Shown: piece by piece, positions 30,233 to 37,520 of the stretch
Position numbering within the stretch: position 1 is the first letter of the stretch
How the letters are laid out: each line of letters starts with the position of its first letter
The notes under the pieces: model-generated
The model's input: only the letters and a program-made list of their open reading frames with translations
Databases searched by the model: none
Told to the model about the DNA's origin: nothing
Assembly (NCBI RefSeq): GCF_036014015.1
Contig: NZ_CP107905.1
Span: 2,294,001 to 2,358,000, forward strand
DNA from: Streptomyces sp. NBC_00457
GTDB lineage: Bacteria > Actinomycetota > Actinomycetes > Streptomycetales > Streptomycetaceae
DNA: 64,000 bases
Direction of reading: 5' to 3'
Made by a program: the position numbers and the translations under genes

Positions 30233-31045
30233 ATGCCCCAGCCCGCCAAGTCCTCACGTACACCAGCCACGCCGCCCGACGCGCCGGAGAGTGCCGCGGG
30301 CAGCCGTGCCGCGGCCCAGCGGCTCAAGATGCGCCGGGAACTGGCGGCCGCGGCGATGGAGCTGTTCGCGACGAAGGGGTACGAGGCGACCACCGTCGAC
30401 GAGATCGCGGCCCGGGCCGGGGTCGCCCGCCGTACGTTCTTCCGGCACTTCCGCTCCAAGGAAGAGGCGATCTTCCCGGATCACGACGACACGCTGATCC
30501 GCGCCGAGGCGGTCCTCAATGCCGCGCCGGCACATGAGCACCCGCTCGACACGGTGTGCAACGGCATCAAGGAAGTCATGCGGATGTACGCGGCCCGGCC
30601 GGAGATCTCGGTCGCCCGTTACAAGCTCACGCGCGAGGTGCCCACCCTGCGGGAGGCGGAGATCGCCTCGGTGGCCCGCTACGAGCGTCTGTTCACCCGC
30701 TATCTCCTGGGCCACTTCGACGAGCACGCACACGACGACGACGCCAACGACGATCCCCTGCTGGCGGAGGTCGCCGCGTCCGCCGTCGTCACCGCCCACA
30801 ACCATGTGCTGCGGCGCTGGCTGCGGGCCGGGGGCCAGGGCGACGTCGAGGCACAGCTGGACCACGCCTTCGCGATCGTACGCAGGACGTTCGGCACGGG
30901 CATCGGCGCCGGGCGCACCGCGACCCCGAAGCCCGCCGCCGCAACGGTGTCCACGCAGGGCGAGGTGCTGGTGACGGTCGCCCGCACGGACGCGCCGCTG
31001 GACGAAGTCATGCGCACCATCGAGCAGGCCCTCAAGGAGCGCTGA
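30233..31045 (+). CDS. TetR family transcriptional regulator of the ccr cluster
   Basis: Protein of 270 aa from ATG 30233 (ATG 30215 would add six residues). The N-terminal HTH lies at about residues 35-85 (MELFATKGYEATTVDEIAARAGVARRTFFRHFRSKEEAIF), followed by a helical ligand/dimer domain with the acidic patch EHAHDDDANDDP. A ~50-residue C-terminal extension ends in MRTIEQALKER. It sits between the 3-hydroxybutyryl-CoA dehydrogenase gene and ccr on the same strand, so control of the ethylmalonyl-CoA genes is the natural inference. A strong hairpin terminator separates it from ccr. Confidence 0.87.
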   Translation: MPQPAKSSRTPATPPDAPESAAGSRAAAQRLKMRRELAAAAMELFATKGYEATTVDEIAARAGVARRTFFRHFRSKEEAIFPDHDDTLIRAEAVLNAAPAHEHPLDTVCNGIKEVMRMYAARPEISVARYKLTREVPTLREAEIASVARYERLFTRYLLGHFDEHAHDDDANDDPLLAEVAASAVVTAHNHVLRRWLRAGGQGDVEAQLDHAFAIVRRTFGTGIGAGRTATPKPAAATVSTQGEVLVTVARTDAPLDEVMRTIEQALKER

Positions 31046-31065
31046 GCCCCTTCGCCACCGTGACG

Positions 31066-31092
31066 ACGGCCACCCCACGGGGTGGCCGTTTT
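31066..31092 (+). terminator. Rho-independent-type terminator after the TetR gene
   Basis: ACGGCCACC (31066-31074) pairs with GGTGGCCGT (31081-31089) over a 6-base loop, and TTTT follows at 31089-31092. It begins 21 bases after the TetR stop and separates that unit from the ccr promoter. Confidence 0.85.
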
Positions 31093-31187
31093 GGCATGTC
31101 AGAGCCCCTTTTCGAGCAGATTTCAGGGGCCGTTCGATCGATCATCGCTCATTTGTTACGTAAAGATTTCACCTGAGAGCAACTTCT

Positions 31188-31229
31188 GGCACTCAGTGCC
31201 TTGCGAGGTGACACGCGGTGTCATACGTT
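31188..31229 (+). promoter_or_regulatory. ccr promoter with two palindromic operator candidates
   Basis: -35 TTGCGA (31201-31206), a 17-base spacer, then -10 TACGTT (31224-31229). The spacer contains the perfect palindrome TGACAC-GCG-GTGTCA (31209-31223). A second perfect palindrome, GGCACT-C-AGTGCC (31188-31200), abuts the -35 on its upstream side. The two centres are 22 bp apart, about two helical turns. A TTACGTAA palindrome lies further up at 31156-31163. A repressor bound in the spacer would exclude RNA polymerase. Confidence 0.65.
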
Positions 31230-31235
31230 GAAGTT

Positions 31236-31454
31236 GTCCGGGCGGCCGGCGTGCAGAGACCATTCGTACGCCGGCTGTCCCCGCAAGCCCCTCCGGCCTG
31301 CGCGCCCGGACGCCTGCGTCACAGGCAACCTCCCGCGCCACAAAGCGCTGCCGAAGCACCACCGCCGAACCGACGGCACCGACCAAAACCCTCAGCAGCA
31401 CCGACGTAACCCTCAGCGTCCCTCCCTCAGGACGCGTACCGCCGGAGGCAAACC
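31236..31454 (+). other. Predicted ~220-base 5' leader of ccr
   Basis: If transcription starts about 7 bases after the -10, the mRNA has a leader of about 219 bases before the GTG at 31455. I see no known riboswitch motif or convincing small reading frame in it. The last part reads GCCGGAGGCAAACC and supplies the ribosome site. With the promoter and the terminator it accounts for the 409 bases between the TetR gene and ccr. Confidence 0.4.
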
Positions 31455-32798
31455 GTGACCGTGAAGGACATCCTGGAAGCGATCCAGTCGCCGGACTCGA
31501 CCCCGGCCGACTTCGCCGCTCTGCCGCTCCCCGAGTCGTACCGCGCGATCACCGTGCACAAGGACGAGACGGAGATGTTCGCCGGGCTCACCACCCGCGA
31601 CAAGGACCCCCGCAAGTCGATCCACCTGGACGACGTCCCGGTGCCGGAACTCGGCCCGGGTGAGGCCCTGGTGGCCGTGATGGCCTCCTCGGTCAACTAC
31701 AACTCGGTGTGGACCTCGATCTTCGAGCCCCTGTCGACCTTCGGGTTCCTGGAGCGCTACGGCCGGCTCAGCGAGCTCACCAAGCGCCACGACCTGCCGT
31801 ACCACATCATCGGCTCCGACCTCGCGGGCGTCGTCCTGCGCACCGGCCCGGGCGTCAACGCCTGGCAGCCCGGTGACGAGGTCGTCGCGCACTGCCTGTC
31901 GGTCGAGCTGGAGTCCTCCGACGGCCACAACGACACGATGCTCGACCCCGAGCAGCGCATCTGGGGCTTCGAGACCAACTTCGGCGGGCTGGCAGAGATC
32001 GCGCTCGTCAAGTCCAACCAGCTGATGCCGAAGCCGGATCACCTCAGCTGGGAGGAGGCCGCCGCTCCCGGACTGGTCAACTCCACCGCGTACCGGCAGC
32101 TCGTCTCCCGCAACGGCGCCGGCATGAAGCAGGGCGACAACGTCCTGATCTGGGGCGCGAGCGGCGGACTCGGCTCGTACGCCACGCAGTTCGCGCTCGC
32201 GGGCGGCGCCAACCCGATCTGTGTCGTCTCCAGCGAGCAGAAGGCCGACATCTGCCGGGCCATGGGCGCCGAGGCGATCATCGACCGCACCGCCGAGGAC
32301 TACAAGTTCTGGAAGGACGAGCACAACCAGGACCCGAAGGAATGGAAGCGCTTCGGCAAGCGCATCCGTGAACTCACCGGCGGCGAGGACGTCGACATCG
32401 TCTTCGAGCACCCGGGCCGTGAGACCTTCGGCGCCTCCGTGTACGTCACCCGCAAGGGCGGCACGATCGTCACCTGCGCCTCGACCTCGGGCTACAACCA
32501 CGAGTACGACAACCGCTACCTGTGGATGTCCCTGAAGCGCATCATCGGCTCGCACTTCGCCAACTACCGCGAGGCCTGGGAGGCCAACCGGCTCATCGCG
32601 AAGGGCAAGATCCACCCCACGCTGTCCAAGGTGTACTCACTGGAGGACACCGGGCAGGCCGCCTACGACGTGCACCGCAACCTCCACCAGGGCAAGGTCG
32701 GTGTGCTGTGCCTGGCGCCCGAGGAGGGTCTCGGCGTGCGCGACGCGGAGAAGCGCGCGAAGCACGTCGACGCCATCAACCGCTTCCGCAACATCTGA
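31455..32798 (+). CDS. ccr: Crotonyl-CoA carboxylase/reductase
   Basis: Protein of 447 aa from GTG 31455 with GGAGG upstream. It reduces crotonyl-CoA with NADPH while adding CO2 to make (2S)-ethylmalonyl-CoA, the committed step of the ethylmalonyl-CoA pathway and a source of polyketide extender units. It is an MDR-fold enzyme with nucleotide site GASGGLGSYATQFA. The CO2-pocket residues known for this family have counterparts here: Asn in SSVNYNSVW, Phe-Glu in WGFETNFGG, and His in IGSHFANY. The length is typical. It leads an operon with ecm, the lyase, hydratase and dehydrogenase genes. Confidence 0.95.
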   Translation: MTVKDILEAIQSPDSTPADFAALPLPESYRAITVHKDETEMFAGLTTRDKDPRKSIHLDDVPVPELGPGEALVAVMASSVNYNSVWTSIFEPLSTFGFLERYGRLSELTKRHDLPYHIIGSDLAGVVLRTGPGVNAWQPGDEVVAHCLSVELESSDGHNDTMLDPEQRIWGFETNFGGLAEIALVKSNQLMPKPDHLSWEEAAAPGLVNSTAYRQLVSRNGAGMKQGDNVLIWGASGGLGSYATQFALAGGANPICVVSSEQKADICRAMGAEAIIDRTAEDYKFWKDEHNQDPKEWKRFGKRIRELTGGEDVDIVFEHPGRETFGASVYVTRKGGTIVTCASTSGYNHEYDNRYLWMSLKRIIGSHFANYREAWEANRLIAKGKIHPTLSKVYSLEDTGQAAYDVHRNLHQGKVGVLCLAPEEGLGVRDAEKRAKHVDAINRFRNI

Positions 32799-32807
32799 GG
32801 TTGGCAC

Positions 32808-34835
32808 ATGACTGAGCGTCAGAAAGACCGGCCGTGGCTGATGCGGACCTACGCCGGTCACTCCACGGCCGAGGCGTCCAACGAGTTGTACCGGCGCAAC
32901 CTCGCCAAGGGCCAGACCGGGCTGTCGGTGGCGTTCGACCTGCCGACGCAGACCGGCTACGACCCGGACCACATCCTCGCCCGCGGCGAGGTCGGCCGGG
33001 TCGGGGTCCCGGTGTCGCACGTCGGTGACATGCGCCGGCTGTTCCAGGACATCCCCATGGAGCAGATGAACACCTCGATGACGATCAACGCCACGGCCAT
33101 GTGGCTGCTGGCGCTCTATCAGGTCGTCGCGGAGGAGCACGGCGCCGACATCACCCAGCTCCAGGGGACGACCCAGAACGACATCGTCAAGGAGTACCTG
33201 TCGCGGGGGACGCATGTGTTCCCGCCGGGGCCGTCGCTCCGTCTGACGACGGACATGATCGCGTACACGGTCTCCCACATGCCCAAGTGGAACCCGATCA
33301 ACATCTGCAGCTACCACCTGCAGGAGGCGGGCGCCACGCCGGTGCAGGAGATCGCGTACGCGATGTCCACCGCCATCGCCGTGCTCGACGCCGTGCGCGA
33401 CAGCGGCCAGGTGCCGCAGGAACGCATGGGCGATGTCGTCGCCCGTATCTCCTTCTTCGTGAACGCGGGCGTCCGCTTCATCGAGGAGATGTGCAAGATG
33501 CGGGCGTTCGGCCGGATCTGGGACGAGATCACGCGCGAGCGGTACGGCATCGAGAACCCCAAGCAGCGCCGTTTCCGGTACGGCGTCCAGGTCAACTCCC
33601 TCGGACTGACCGAGGCGCAGCCGGAGAACAACGTCCAGCGGATCGTGCTGGAGATGCTGGCAGTGACCCTCTCGAAGGACGCACGCGCGCGTGCCGTCCA
33701 ACTCCCCGCCTGGAACGAGGCGTTGGGGCTCCCCCGCCCCTGGGACCAGCAGTGGTCGCTGCGCATCCAGCAGGTGCTCGCCCATGAGAGCGACCTGCTG
33801 GAGTACGCGGACATCTTCGAGGGCTCGCACGTCATCGAGGCGAAGGTCGCGCAGCTCGTCGAGGAGTCCCTCGCGGAGATCGACCGGATCCAGGAGATGG
33901 GCGGCGCGATGGCCGCCGTCGAGTCGGGCTATCTCAAGTCGCAGCTCGTGGCGTCCCACGCCGAGCGCCGGGCGCGGATCGAGTCCGGCCAGGAGAAGAT
34001 CGTCGGCGTCAACATCTACGAGTCGACCGAGCCGAACCCGCTCACGGCCGACCTGGACGCCGCGATCCAGACGGTCGACCCGGCGGTCGAGGCGCGCGTC
34101 GTGCACGCCCTGGAGCGCTGGCGTGAGACTCGCTACCAGCCGCCGTTCAACCACCCGCGCCCCTGCAAGGCGCTGGAGAGGCTGAAGGAGGCCGCGAAGG
34201 GCACCGCGAACCTCATGGAGGCCACCCTGGAGTGCGCCCGCGCCGGGGTCACGACCGGTGAGTGGGCCGGGGCCCTGCGCGAGGTGTTCGGTGAGTTCCG
34301 GGCGCCGACGGGCGTGTCCTCCGCGCCGGTCGCGGTGACCGCCGAGGAGGGCACCGCGATGGCGCTCGTCCGCCGCCGGGTGGACGAGACCGCCCGTGAC
34401 CTCGGCGTCGGCAAGCTTCGCTTCCTGGTCGGCAAGCCGGGCCTGGACGGGCACTCCAACGGGGCCGAGCAGATCGCCGTACGCGCGCGTGACGCCGGCT
34501 TCGAGGTGGTCTACCAGGGCATCCGGCTCACCCCGGAGCAGATCGTGGACGCGGCCATCGCCGAGGACGTGCACGCGGTGGGCCTGTCGATCCTCTCCGG
34601 GTCGCACGCCCAGCTGGTGCCGGACGTGCTGGAACGCCTCCATGTGGCCGGTGCCACAGAGATACCTGTCATCGCCGGTGGGATCATCCCCAATGGCGAC
34701 GCCGAGCAGCTGAAGGCCGCGGGTGTGGCCGCCGTCTTCACCCCGAAGGACTTCGACATCACCGGAATCATCGGCCGCATCGTCGACGAGATCCGGAAAG
34801 CGAACAAGCTCGACCCCCTGGAGGTCCCCGCATGA
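32808..34835 (+). CDS. ecm: Ethylmalonyl-CoA mutase (coenzyme B12-dependent)
   Basis: Protein of 675 aa, once called MeaA. It converts ethylmalonyl-CoA to methylsuccinyl-CoA by radical rearrangement. The N-terminal TIM barrel (about 1-510) opens with [42 protein letters not shown]. The C-terminal cobalamin domain (about 540-665) has the DxHxxG motif in GLDGHSNG, with Ser and Gly loops in LSILSGSH and AGGI. It starts 9 bases after ccr, and its stop overlaps the lyase start by four bases (ATGA). It is shorter than methylmalonyl-CoA mutase large subunits (~730 aa), as expected. Confidence 0.93.
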   Translation: MTERQKDRPWLMRTYAGHSTAEASNELYRRNLAKGQTGLSVAFDLPTQTGYDPDHILARGEVGRVGVPVSHVGDMRRLFQDIPMEQMNTSMTINATAMWLLALYQVVAEEHGADITQLQGTTQNDIVKEYLSRGTHVFPPGPSLRLTTDMIAYTVSHMPKWNPINICSYHLQEAGATPVQEIAYAMSTAIAVLDAVRDSGQVPQERMGDVVARISFFVNAGVRFIEEMCKMRAFGRIWDEITRERYGIENPKQRRFRYGVQVNSLGLTEAQPENNVQRIVLEMLAVTLSKDARARAVQLPAWNEALGLPRPWDQQWSLRIQQVLAHESDLLEYADIFEGSHVIEAKVAQLVEESLAEIDRIQEMGGAMAAVESGYLKSQLVASHAERRARIESGQEKIVGVNIYESTEPNPLTADLDAAIQTVDPAVEARVVHALERWRETRYQPPFNHPRPCKALERLKEAAKGTANLMEATLECARAGVTTGEWAGALREVFGEFRAPTGVSSAPVAVTAEEGTAMALVRRRVDETARDLGVGKLRFLVGKPGLDGHSNGAEQIAVRARDAGFEVVYQGIRLTPEQIVDAAIAEDVHAVGLSILSGSHAQLVPDVLERLHVAGATEIPVIAGGIIPNGDAEQLKAAGVAAVFTPKDFDITGIIGRIVDEIRKANKLDPLEVPA

Positions 34836-35794
34836 CGACCGTCAACCGCCTTCGCCCGCGGCGCTCCTGCCTGGCCGTACCGGGCTCGAACCCGCGTTTC
34901 CTGGAGAAGGCGCAGGGCCTCCCCGCCGACCAGGTCTTCCTCGACCTCGAGGACGCGTGCGCGCCGCTCGCCAAGCCCGAGGCGCGGCACACCATCGTCA
35001 AGTTCCTCAACGAGGGCGACTGGACGGGCAAGACGCGGGTCGTGCGCGTCAACGACTGGACGACGGAGTGGACGTACCGCGATGTCGTGACGGTGGTCGA
35101 AGGCGCGGGCCCGAACCTGGACTGCATCATGCTGCCGAAGGTCCAGGACGCCCAGCAGATCGTCGCCCTGGACCTGCTGCTGACGCAGATCGAGAAGACG
35201 ATGGGCTTCGAGGTCGGCAAGATCGGCATCGAGGCGCAGATCGAGAACGCGCAGGGCCTGAACAACGTCAACGAGATCGCGCAGGCCTCCCCGCGCGTCG
35301 AGACGATCATCTTCGGCCCGGCCGACTTCATGGCGTCGATCAACATGAAGTCGCTGGTCGTGGGCGAGCAGCCGCCCGGCTACCCGGCGGACGCCTACCA
35401 CTACATCCTGATGAAGATCCTGATGGCCGCCCGCGCCAACAACCTCCAGGCGATCGACGGCCCCTACCTCCAGATCCGCAACATCGACGGCTACCGCGAG
35501 GTCGCCGGGCGCGCCGCCGCCCTCGGTTTCGACGGCAAGTGGGTGCTGCACCCGGGCCAGGTCGAGGCGTCCAACGAGATCTTCTCGCCCTCGCAGGAGG
35601 ACTACGACCACGCCGAGCTGATCCTGGACGCGTACGACTACTACACGTCCGAGGCGGGCGGCAAGAAGGGCTCCGCGATGCTCGGCGACGAGATGATCGA
35701 CGAGGCCAGCCGCAAGATGGCGCTGGTCATCTCCGGCAAGGGCCGTGCGGCCGGCATGCAGCGCACCAGCAAGTTCGAGATCCCGGAGGCCTGA
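34832..35794 (+). CDS. HpcH/HpaI-family lyase, L-malyl-CoA/beta-methylmalyl-CoA lyase
   Basis: Protein of 320 aa. It cleaves beta-methylmalyl-CoA to glyoxylate and propionyl-CoA, and malyl-CoA to glyoxylate and acetyl-CoA. The CitE-like barrel has VPGSNPRFLEKA, the metal ligands Glu in GIEAQIENAQGL and Asp in FGPADFMAS, and the CoA-side FLDLEDACAP. The C-terminal lid includes WVLHPGQVEASNE. Its ATG is inside the ecm stop region (ATGA). The assignment within the CitE family rests on its place between ecm and the mesaconyl-CoA hydratase gene. Confidence 0.88.
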   Translation: MTTVNRLRPRRSCLAVPGSNPRFLEKAQGLPADQVFLDLEDACAPLAKPEARHTIVKFLNEGDWTGKTRVVRVNDWTTEWTYRDVVTVVEGAGPNLDCIMLPKVQDAQQIVALDLLLTQIEKTMGFEVGKIGIEAQIENAQGLNNVNEIAQASPRVETIIFGPADFMASINMKSLVVGEQPPGYPADAYHYILMKILMAARANNLQAIDGPYLQIRNIDGYREVAGRAAALGFDGKWVLHPGQVEASNEIFSPSQEDYDHAELILDAYDYYTSEAGGKKGSAMLGDEMIDEASRKMALVISGKGRAAGMQRTSKFEIPEA

Positions 35795-35799
35795 GCGCG

Positions 35800-36312
35800 A
35801 TGCAGTTCGGACGCACCTACGAGGAGTTCGAGGTCGGGGCGACGTACAAGCACTGGCCGGGAAAGACGGTCACGGAGTACGACGACCACCTGTTCTGTCT
35901 CCTCACCATGAACCACCACCCGCTCCACATGGACGCCAACTACGCCGAGAACACGACGGACTTCGGCAAGAACGTGGTGGTCGGGAACTACATCTACTCC
36001 CTCCTGCTCGGCATGTCCGTGCCGGACATCTCCGGCAAGGCGATCGCCAACCTGGAGATCGAGTCGCTCAAGCACGTGGCGCCGACCTTCCACGGCGACA
36101 CGATCTACGGCCAGACGACCGTGCTGGACAAGTGGCCGTCCAAGTCGAAGAACGACCGCGGCATCGTCCACGTCGAGACCAAGGGCTACAAGCAGGACGG
36201 CACGCTGGTCTGCGTGTTCCGCCGCAAGGTCATGGTGCCGACCGAGACGTACATCAAGGAGCGCGGCGGCGAGCAGCCGGGCCGCCCCCAGCTCAAGGAG
36301 CAGGAGAAGTAG
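35800..36312 (+). CDS. MaoC-family dehydratase, mesaconyl-CoA hydratase
   Basis: Protein of 170 aa, a single hot-dog domain. It would hydrate mesaconyl-C1-CoA to beta-methylmalyl-CoA. The motif region reads LLTMNHHPLHMDANYAE, where the family usually has GDxNPxH. The His and Pro are kept, but the position of the catalytic Asp holds Asn. The Asp pair DD in TEYDDHLF just before it may compensate. Later strands (VVVGNYIYSLLLG; IANLEIESLKHVAPTFHGDTI) are standard. It starts 5 bases after the lyase stop and is followed 2 bases on by the dehydrogenase gene. Confidence 0.85.
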   Translation: MQFGRTYEEFEVGATYKHWPGKTVTEYDDHLFCLLTMNHHPLHMDANYAENTTDFGKNVVVGNYIYSLLLGMSVPDISGKAIANLEIESLKHVAPTFHGDTIYGQTTVLDKWPSKSKNDRGIVHVETKGYKQDGTLVCVFRRKVMVPTETYIKERGGEQPGRPQLKEQEK

Positions 36313-36314
36313 CC

Positions 36315-37520
36315 ATGGCGCGACTCGCCCAGACCGCCGGTCTGACGGACATCCAGCAGGAGATCCTGTCCACGGTCCGCGACTTCGTGGACAAGGAGAT
36401 CATCCCGGTCGCGACCGAGCTGGAGCACCGCGACGAGTACCCGCAGCAGATCGTCGACGGCCTCAAGGAGTTGGGCCTGTTCGGCCTGATGATCCCGGAG
36501 GAGTACGGCGGCCTGGGCGAGTCCCTTCTGACGTACGCCCTGTGCGTCGAGGAGATCGCCCGCGGCTGGATGTCGGTGTCCGGCATCATCAACACGCACT
36601 TCATCGTGGCGTACATGCTCAAGCAGCACGGCACCGACGAGCAGCGGGACTACTTCCTGCCGAAGATGGCGGCCGGTGACATCCGGGGCGCCTTCTCGAT
36701 GTCGGAGCCGGCGCTGGGTTCCGATGTGTCGGCCATCACGTCGAAGGCGGTCAAGGACGGCGACGAGTACGTCCTGAACGGCCAGAAGATGTGGCTGACG
36801 AACGGCGGTACGTCGACTCTCGTGGCCGTCCTCGTGAAGAGTGACGAAGGACACCCCGAGGGCACCGCCCCCCACAAGTCGATGACGACCTTCCTCGTCG
36901 AGAAGGAGCCCGGCTTCGGAGAGGTCCGTCCGGGCCTCACCATCCCCGGGAAGATCGACAAGATGGGGTACAAGGGCGTCGACACCACCGAGCTCATCAT
37001 GGATGGCCTGCGGATTCCGGCCGACCGCGTGCTCGGCGGCCAGACCGGCCGGGGTTTCTACCAGATGATGGACGGCGTGGAGGTCGGCCGCGTCAACGTG
37101 GCGGCGCGTGGTTGCGGGGTCGCTCAGCGTGCGTTCGAGCTCGGTGTCCAGTACGCCCAGCAGCGTCACACTTTCGGCAAGCCGATCGCCCAGCACCAGG
37201 CGATCCAGTTCAAGCTGGCCGAGATGGCCACCAAGGTCGAAGCCGCGCATGCGATGATGGTGAACGCGGCACGCAAAAAGGACTCCGGAGAACGAAACGA
37301 CCTTGAGGCTGGGATGGCGAAGTACCTCGCCTCCGAGTACTGCAAGGAGGTCGTCGAGGACTCTTTCCGGATCCACGGCGGCTACGGCTTCTCCAAGGAG
37401 TACGAGATCGAGCGCCTCTACCGAGAGGCTCCGATGCTGCTGATCGGTGAAGGTACCGCCGAGATCCAGAAAATGATCATCGGTCGCAGGCTGCTCGAAG
37501 AGTATCGACTCCAGGGCTAG
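36315..37520 (+). CDS. Acyl-CoA dehydrogenase, probable (2S)-methylsuccinyl-CoA dehydrogenase
   Basis: Protein of 401 aa with the three acyl-CoA dehydrogenase domains: the N-terminal helices, the middle barrel (AFSMSEPALGSDVSAITSKA, WLTNGG for FAD), and the C-terminal helices (FGKPIAQHQAIQFKLAEMATKVEAA; RIHGGYGFSKEYEIERLYREA). The C-terminal LLIGEGTAEIQKMIIGR is where many members place the catalytic Glu, and a Glu is visible there (GEGTAE). In the ethylmalonyl-CoA pathway this step makes mesaconyl-CoA. The specific substrate is inferred from the operon; the family is certain. Confidence 0.88.
   Translation: MARLAQTAGLTDIQQEILSTVRDFVDKEIIPVATELEHRDEYPQQIVDGLKELGLFGLMIPEEYGGLGESLLTYALCVEEIARGWMSVSGIINTHFIVAYMLKQHGTDEQRDYFLPKMAAGDIRGAFSMSEPALGSDVSAITSKAVKDGDEYVLNGQKMWLTNGGTSTLVAVLVKSDEGHPEGTAPHKSMTTFLVEKEPGFGEVRPGLTIPGKIDKMGYKGVDTTELIMDGLRIPADRVLGGQTGRGFYQMMDGVEVGRVNVAARGCGVAQRAFELGVQYAQQRHTFGKPIAQHQAIQFKLAEMATKVEAAHAMMVNAARKKDSGERNDLEAGMAKYLASEYCKEVVEDSFRIHGGYGFSKEYEIERLYREAPMLLIGEGTAEIQKMIIGRRLLEEYRLQG

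Follow-up and report, generated by a model that had tools for sequence, protein, structure and literature searches.

Paired palindromes over the ccr promoter of Streptomyces and a neighbouring TetR-family protein as their candidate regulator

The TetR protein CcrR of Methylobacterium extorquens is reportedly an activator of ccr; the protein that we propose for Streptomyces is a TetR at the ccr of the same pathway, and differs in that it would be a repressor. The closest operators described are those of two other TetR proteins. MftR of Mycolicibacterium smegmatis is a repressor released by long-chain acyl-CoA, and its operator Omft (TGGCACTCGATGCCA / TCCATTCTGGCACTCGATGCCATATAT) was mapped by experiment, according to the sections of that study cited here (PMC8728441). 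TGGCACTCGATGCCA has the frame of the operator O1 described below and its left half, CTGGCACTC. By contrast MftR has a single site at the mycofactocin cluster, whereas the sites here are paired and lie at acetate-assimilation genes, and the candidate protein falls under the cut-off of the MftR model. The operator of SCO3201, a TetR protein of S. coelicolor (TGGCAGATTCTGCCA), was also mapped by experiment; it has the TGGCA-N5-TGCCA frame but other inner bases, and SCO3201 is among the top structural matches of the candidate protein. In the parts of the work cited, SCO3201 was studied at its own promoter and, over-expressed, at fatty-acid genes (PMC7324645; PDB 4cgr, 5efy, 7pt0). RamB of Paracoccus denitrificans brings the ethylmalonyl-CoA pathway into step with the glyoxylate cycle by way of CoA esters; as described in the cited excerpt it differs in being an activator of the ScfR family that uses two boxes with an 18-bp spacer (PMC10370305).

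Acetyl-CoA is a hub of central metabolism that also provides building blocks of antibiotics, and the ethylmalonyl-CoA pathway is one route by which polyketide antibiotics obtain ethylmalonyl- and methylmalonyl-CoA. The regulators of Streptomyces ccr in the papers retrieved are all wide-ranging ones, i.e. GlnR at the ccr promoter of S. venezuelae and Crp, which raises ccr transcripts in S. cinnamonensis; no dedicated one was found there. The preliminary description of the locus knew of no operator of this form for Streptomyces ccr, and there is none in the open-licence PMC papers searched; nor do these contain any of five site strings, and no TetR or GntR regulator of ccr, aceE or isocitrate lyase in Streptomyces came up in the search listings. 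While both the protein family and the type of operator have precedents, there appear to be none for the pairing of the sites, the set of targets or the reciprocal layout. What is gained is a named protein, operators, and target promoters that can be tested across the genus.

The window, i.e. the whole stretch of DNA analysed, comprises 64,000 nucleotides of Streptomyces sp. NBC_00457 (GCF_036014015.1, NZ_CP107905.1, positions 2,294,001-2,358,000, corresponding to C1:2294001-2358000 of the 10.8-Mb genome G000; G and L numbers denote genomes and loci). Upstream of the ccr operon (Table 1) are genes for a TetR protein and for a double 3-hydroxyacyl-CoA dehydrogenase. The C-terminal part of the acyl-CoA dehydrogenase-containing ORF is a candidate methylsuccinyl-CoA dehydrogenase, and the start of that ORF is putative.

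Direct reading of the sequence upstream of ccr gives two palindromes, O1, with its core GGCACTCAGTGCC at 31188-31200, and O2. Their centres are 22 bp apart, and O2 fills the 17-bp spacer between TTGCGA and TACGTT. The palindromes, spacer and distance are thus as first described, and the idea of operator-like sites lying over the core promoter on about one helical face is supported. Both sites fit the single consensus TGNCAC-N3-GTGNC; aligned over the same 15 bp, O2 matches TGRCACNNNGTGYCA perfectly and O1 departs from it at one position. The TGGCA-N5-TGCCA palindrome of the MftR-type operator is present in O1 (as TGGCACTCAGTGCC) and, as a TGACA/TGTCA variant, in O2. The -35 and -10 elements were assigned from their conservation and from the HrdB promoter pattern of Streptomyces, and transcription would be expected to start near 31236. 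A generic sigma-70 scan of 31030-31470 reported no promoter, and no terminator either. An RNA element in the ccr leader was considered and rejected, since nothing in Rfam matched at E-values of 1 or below.

We note two other features of this region. A perfect inverted repeat (GGCCACCCC-AC-GGGGTGGCC, 31068-31087) followed by GTTTTG lies 3′ of the TetR stop; it is below the scan threshold, and is possibly a terminator between the TetR gene and ccr. Another conserved stretch (31153-31172, TTGTTACGTAAAGATTTCAC), containing a TTACGTAA palindrome, lies between O1 and the second box listed in Table 1.

Table 1. Features of the ccr region, in coordinates of the window.
Feature	Position	Strand	Basis
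TetR-family regulator P0002, 270 aa	30233..31045	+	PF00440 64.8 bits; candidate binder of O1 and O2
Second conserved box, GATCGATCATCGCTCA	31136..31151	+	conserved in 81-row alignment; common to aceE promoter
Operator O1, TGGCACTCAGTGCCT	31187..31201		direct reading and alignment; core abuts -35
Putative -35, TTGCGA	31201..31206	+	TTG in 81/81 aligned rows
Operator O2, TGACACGCGGTGTCA	31209..31223		direct reading and alignment; inside -35/-10 spacer
Putative -10, TACGTT	31224..31229	+	TA in 81/81 rows, other bases 76-81/81
ccr, crotonyl-CoA carboxylase/reductase	31455..32798	+	TIGR01751 641 bits, cut-off 378.55
B12-dependent acyl-CoA mutase (ethylmalonyl-CoA mutase, meaA-like, by position)	32808..34835	+	PF01642, PF02310
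HpcH/HpaI lyase (malyl-CoA lyase/CitE-like)	34832..35794	+	PF03328
Acyl-CoA dehydrogenase-containing ORF	35745..37520	+	PF00441, PF02771, PF02770 over residues 201-584

A search of orthologous ccr promoters, as the preliminary description had proposed, confirms that the palindromes are real and conserved. O1 and O2 are exactly 22 bp apart in all 80 ccr loci analysed; these were the 80 top-scoring ones among 595 confirmed matches and hence represent close relatives (79 are labelled Streptomyces and one 'Actinobacteria bacterium'). Two sites scoring at least 11/12 are present in every one of the 80, and the reversed motif reaches this score in none. In the 81-row alignment of ccr loci the palindrome arms show little or no variation at most positions, while the third base of the half-site, the 3-bp centres of the palindromes and the four bases separating TTGC from O2 are variable. 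The -35 keeps its TTG, and the -10 region its TACGTTGA, almost without exception.

The exact tandem was found in 277 of 295 evenly drawn Streptomyces genomes, and its reversed pattern in none. Inspected by eye, almost every one of the matches listed shows the signature of ccr (O1, then TTGC or TTGT); those elsewhere are in G036 and G048, with an aceE-type box, and in G010, 5′ of sucC. Eighteen of the 295 genomes are without the exact tandem. In nine of these the ccr pair is present at 22 bp but deviates at one or two positions, in G112 the distance between the two sites is 42 bp, and G008 and G050 have too little sequence 5′ of ccr. No ccr ortholog was found in G037, G113, G135, G156 and G271 (G113 encodes a protein of 39% identity), and the ccr of G186, at 77% identity, is without O1 and O2 sites. 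Outside the genus a ccr match was found in 72 genomes; the 14 of these that were fetched have no site of at least 10/12 in the 1.1-1.5 kb upstream of ccr, nor is a relative of P0002 encoded within these loci, whose flanks reach up to 1.5 kb. By chance 0.0004 exact tandems, 0.023 with one mismatch and 0.61 with two would be expected on the forward strand of the 10.8-Mb genome, where one, one and two places were observed. Taken together with the 80 loci and the 277 genomes, these counts mean that the tandem exceeds chance.

P0002 belongs to the TetR family by its N-terminal helix-turn-helix domain (PF00440, cut-off 24). Its AlphaFold2 model (mean pLDDT 82.6, 10-row alignment) has the all-helical TetR fold, and the leading PDB matches are TetR-type regulators; the nearest solved structures include SCO0337, SCO3201, Thermus thermophilus FadR with acyl-CoA, and MftR. 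The protein lies below the cut-offs of the MftR model TIGR03968 (86.1 bits against 224.9) and of the MftR-type C-terminal domain PF17754 (TetR_C_14; 19.7 bits against 22.7), the latter being reached by the paralogue at L104 with 39.1 bits. The profile search found TetR_N and no ScfRs domain PF09856 in P0002. By tblastn comparison 79 of the 80 loci have a gene of the P0002 type ahead of ccr and in the same orientation, with 77-96% identity; the remaining locus, L070, is truncated. This conserved linkage supports the earlier choice of the neighbouring TetR protein as the likely regulator. The recognition helix AGVARRTFFRHFRSKE is identical in 78 of the 79 TetR proteins beside ccr. From the gene order we take the S. 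coelicolor counterpart to be SCO6474, beside sco6475 and ccr (SCO6473); the passages of one paper that name SCO6474 assign no targets to it.

No such palindrome was seen 5′ of the P0002 gene itself, so that autoregulation is not visible. An inverted repeat at that place had been pointed out previously; it is not conserved, TGCGCA-N6-TGCGCA being found in 9 of 79 loci, and was rejected as a TetR operator.

Operators of this type are linked to this TetR subfamily at further loci. The gene of the closest paralogue of P0002 in its own genome (48% identity) is followed directly by GGGCACTCAGTACC-N8-TGGCACTGAGTGCCATACGCT, with the spacing and promoter shape seen at ccr and TACGCT as -10, and there is a weaker palindrome pair 5′ of the same gene. 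Five paralogue loci from other genomes were compared; pairs 22-23 bp apart lie near the gene in L223, L225 and L226, L224 has pairs somewhere in the locus, and L227 has no pair. Among 13 TetR relatives of the own genome (i.e. 13 of the 14 others, leaving out a duplicate at 10.57 Mb) a site of at least 11/12 is nearby in only three (L104, L108 and L128), and two more have a site at 10/12. The protein of L128 resembles SCO3201 by alignment and is 28% identical to P0002. The paralogous TetR locus L104 (3376-4210; ~745.9-746.7 kb of G000:C1) has paired operators on both sides of its TetR gene.

The reading that we favour, to which we give a probability of about three in four, is that a single TetR protein, P0002, has its paired operator in O1 and O2, represses ccr, is released by acyl-CoA and has wider targets at the acetyl-CoA node. 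P0002 is best read as an acyl-CoA-type TetR repressor of acetate assimilation, SCO6474-like by gene order. Two TetR dimers bound two helical turns apart would cover the ccr promoter from the -35 to the -10 and keep RNA polymerase off the gene. An acyl-CoA signalling the use of acetate or fatty acids would then release the protein, so that the ethylmalonyl-CoA operon is turned on. What suggests that P0002 may respond to acyl-CoA is the structural nearness of its model to FadR and MftR. Tight repression of ccr is a fair inference from the geometry; ccr1 of S. tsukubaensis is below quantification on glucose/dextrin medium, which fits a repressed operon. Counting against this reading are the MftR cut-offs that P0002 misses, the negative result for a palindrome before its own gene, the small share of own-genome TetR relatives with a nearby site, the genomes G135 and G186 described elsewhere in this text, and the reports on GlnR and Crp at ccr. 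The same protein would act at TGRCAC-N3-GTGYCA-like palindromes at aceA (where present), citrate synthase, sucCD and aceE. If this is true, the way in which the acetyl-CoA node is controlled could be put to a direct test with a single deletion strain, and there would be a handle on precursor supply.

The isocitrate lyase gene aceA was found in 56 of the 295 Streptomyces genomes (58 genes; none found in G000). A site of at least 11/12 was found upstream of 54 of the 58 and one of at least 10/12 upstream of 56, where the reversed motif reaches 11/12 in none; at least one of the weaker matches (G168) lies at the gene start and looks like chance. A TTG begins four bases 5′ of the site in 54 of the 58 upstream regions (e.g. 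TTGATGGCACTCAGTGCCAGTGCCAGAGT), so the palindrome would fill the spacer of the aceA promoter as it does at ccr, and we therefore propose repression for aceA too. In 35 of 51 aceA upstream regions that have a further downstream site, the distance is 176-183 bp (most commonly 179); this second palindrome in the leader, ~180 bp downstream (e.g. L235, L239, L241, L234), could allow looping.

The aceA site is shared by ccr-bearing genomes and by four that lack a ccr ortholog. The latter provide a natural experiment, since G037, G113, G156 and G271 have kept the TetR gene and carry an exact palindrome at the isocitrate lyase promoter. A fifth genome, G135, has kept the TetR gene but has no ccr and no exact palindrome, and is not one of the 56 genomes with an aceA match. 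In G271, G113, G037 and G135 the TetR gene is followed directly by the genes for an HpcH/HpaI lyase and phosphatidylserine decarboxylase, i.e. the flanks are the same as in the window, minus the ccr, mutase and dehydrogenase genes between them (G156 was left out of this comparison, its lyase ORF not being in the ORF list). Six genomes together contain nine exact single palindromes, against three in the reversed control, from which it is clear that a lone site can be chance; four of the nine are at aceA, four are intergenic and 3′ of a GntR gene, and one is elsewhere. The loci of G135 (L299) and G186 (L202, L214) are exceptions of two kinds, the first having TetR with neither ccr nor aceA found, and the second ccr without the sites.

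A RamB-type gene is divergent from aceA at the palindrome, and in G156 its product scores 192 bits for the ScfRs domain PF09856. Given that RamB joins the same two pathways in the cited part of the Paracoccus work (PMC10370305), another regulator, most plausibly of this ScfR/RamB type, might bind the palindromes, with TetR a bystander. We regard this as unlikely. The two boxes and 18-bp spacer described in that excerpt for Paracoccus RamB are not a 15-bp palindrome (PMC10370305), while operators of this shape have been mapped for the TetR relatives MftR and SCO3201. Moreover aceA was found in just 56 of the 295 genomes, as against 277 with the tandem.

It is about equally improbable that the TetR protein binds and activates ccr, in the manner reported for CcrR in M. 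extorquens. The position of O1 just upstream of the -35 would suit an activator, but O2 fills the 17-bp spacer of ccr and the aceA site is placed likewise, and this is the geometry of a repressor.

The preliminary description deduced from the differing half-sites that two regulators might act, one at each palindrome; O1 and O2 indeed differ at one base of their half-sites in the window and end in T and A, respectively, in nearly all loci, but the third base of the left half-site overlaps among relatives (G or A in O1; A, G or T in O2), the two share one consensus and one fixed spacing, and the pair recurs at paralogous loci, so that they are variants of one site and separate regulators are rejected as very improbable.

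The preliminary description suggested repression at these operators and named the TetR protein as one to test for binding; the wider set of targets (aceE, aceA, sucC and citrate synthase) and the second box were missed. This box, also written GATCGATSATCGATCA, is 51 bp 5′ of O1. Of 121 Streptomyces genomes 118 contain its pattern GATCGATSATCGMTCA, as a rule once at ccr and once at an aceE-type place, and the reversed control gave none among the matches listed. The tandem scan of G000 also matched the aceE promoter. At aceE there is a full palindrome, TGATCGATSATCGATCA, in overlap with an inferred TTGATC-18-TANNGT promoter, and 43-86 bp before it the TetR pair begins. Thirty box loci were fetched, comprising 21 of aceE, seven of ccr (L250 being counted here), one of a WYL-domain gene (L257) and one other (L270). 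With G000 and G067 the 21 make 23 aceE promoters, all of which have a palindrome pair 22 bp apart upstream of the box that scores at least 9/12, and in 21 of the 23 at least 10/12. The reversed motif gave 0 of 23, and no such pair occurs at 66,241 other positions in the same loci. At L257, where the box is 5′ of the WYL-domain gene, there is no palindrome of at least 9/12 within 140 bp. Box sites in G037, G156, G271, G018 and G186 were rejected as aceE, because the next gene looks like a WYL-domain regulator (tested against Pfam for G037 and G018 only, and read from the ORF list for G186). Palindrome pairs also lie at sucC in three genomes, G000 and G010 (22 bp) and G067 (32 bp), and in G000 and G067 two sites 32 bp apart are found at citrate synthase.

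The second box and the TetR pair therefore swap places between ccr and aceE. At aceE the pair is upstream of the promoter, so repression is not the obvious reading there, and it may activate. Upstream of aceE lies a GntR/FCD gene, which we take to be the counterpart of SCO2182 in S. coelicolor; one paper guessed that SCO2182 acts positively on aceE1. The regulator encoded there is a natural candidate to bind the second box. An extension that we offer tentatively, and think rather less likely than not to be right in full, is that the TetR and GntR/FCD proteins together form a reciprocal switch by which Streptomyces governs its acetyl-CoA node. The core promoter of ccr would be covered by the TetR pair, with the GATCGAT box ~92 bp ahead of the inferred start; aceE would have the opposite arrangement, the box falling on the inferred -35 element and the pair lying ~80-100 bp upstream. 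TetR would repress acetate assimilation (through ccr or aceA) and favour pyruvate dehydrogenase, the SCO2182-like protein would act in reverse, and TetR would be kept where a lineage has the glyoxylate-cycle aceA and no ccr.

A genome-wide scan for single sites with two mismatches gave 876 sites, against 1305 in the reversed control; the window's own O1 and O2 are not among the matches listed. Because the control exceeds the real count, we used only sites that are tandem, exact or conserved. Twenty sites with one mismatch were listed in the own genome; by a crude gene prediction from codon usage seven are inside genes and 13 outside, and for some no neighbouring gene was predicted. Those taken on from the scans were the sites at citrate synthase and at TetR genes (from the single-site scan) and that at sucC (from the tandem scan). 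Exact single palindromes were also seen 5′ of short-chain dehydrogenase genes of the own genome, at L109 (3456-3532) and L108 (3492), and one of these is also beside a TetR relative.
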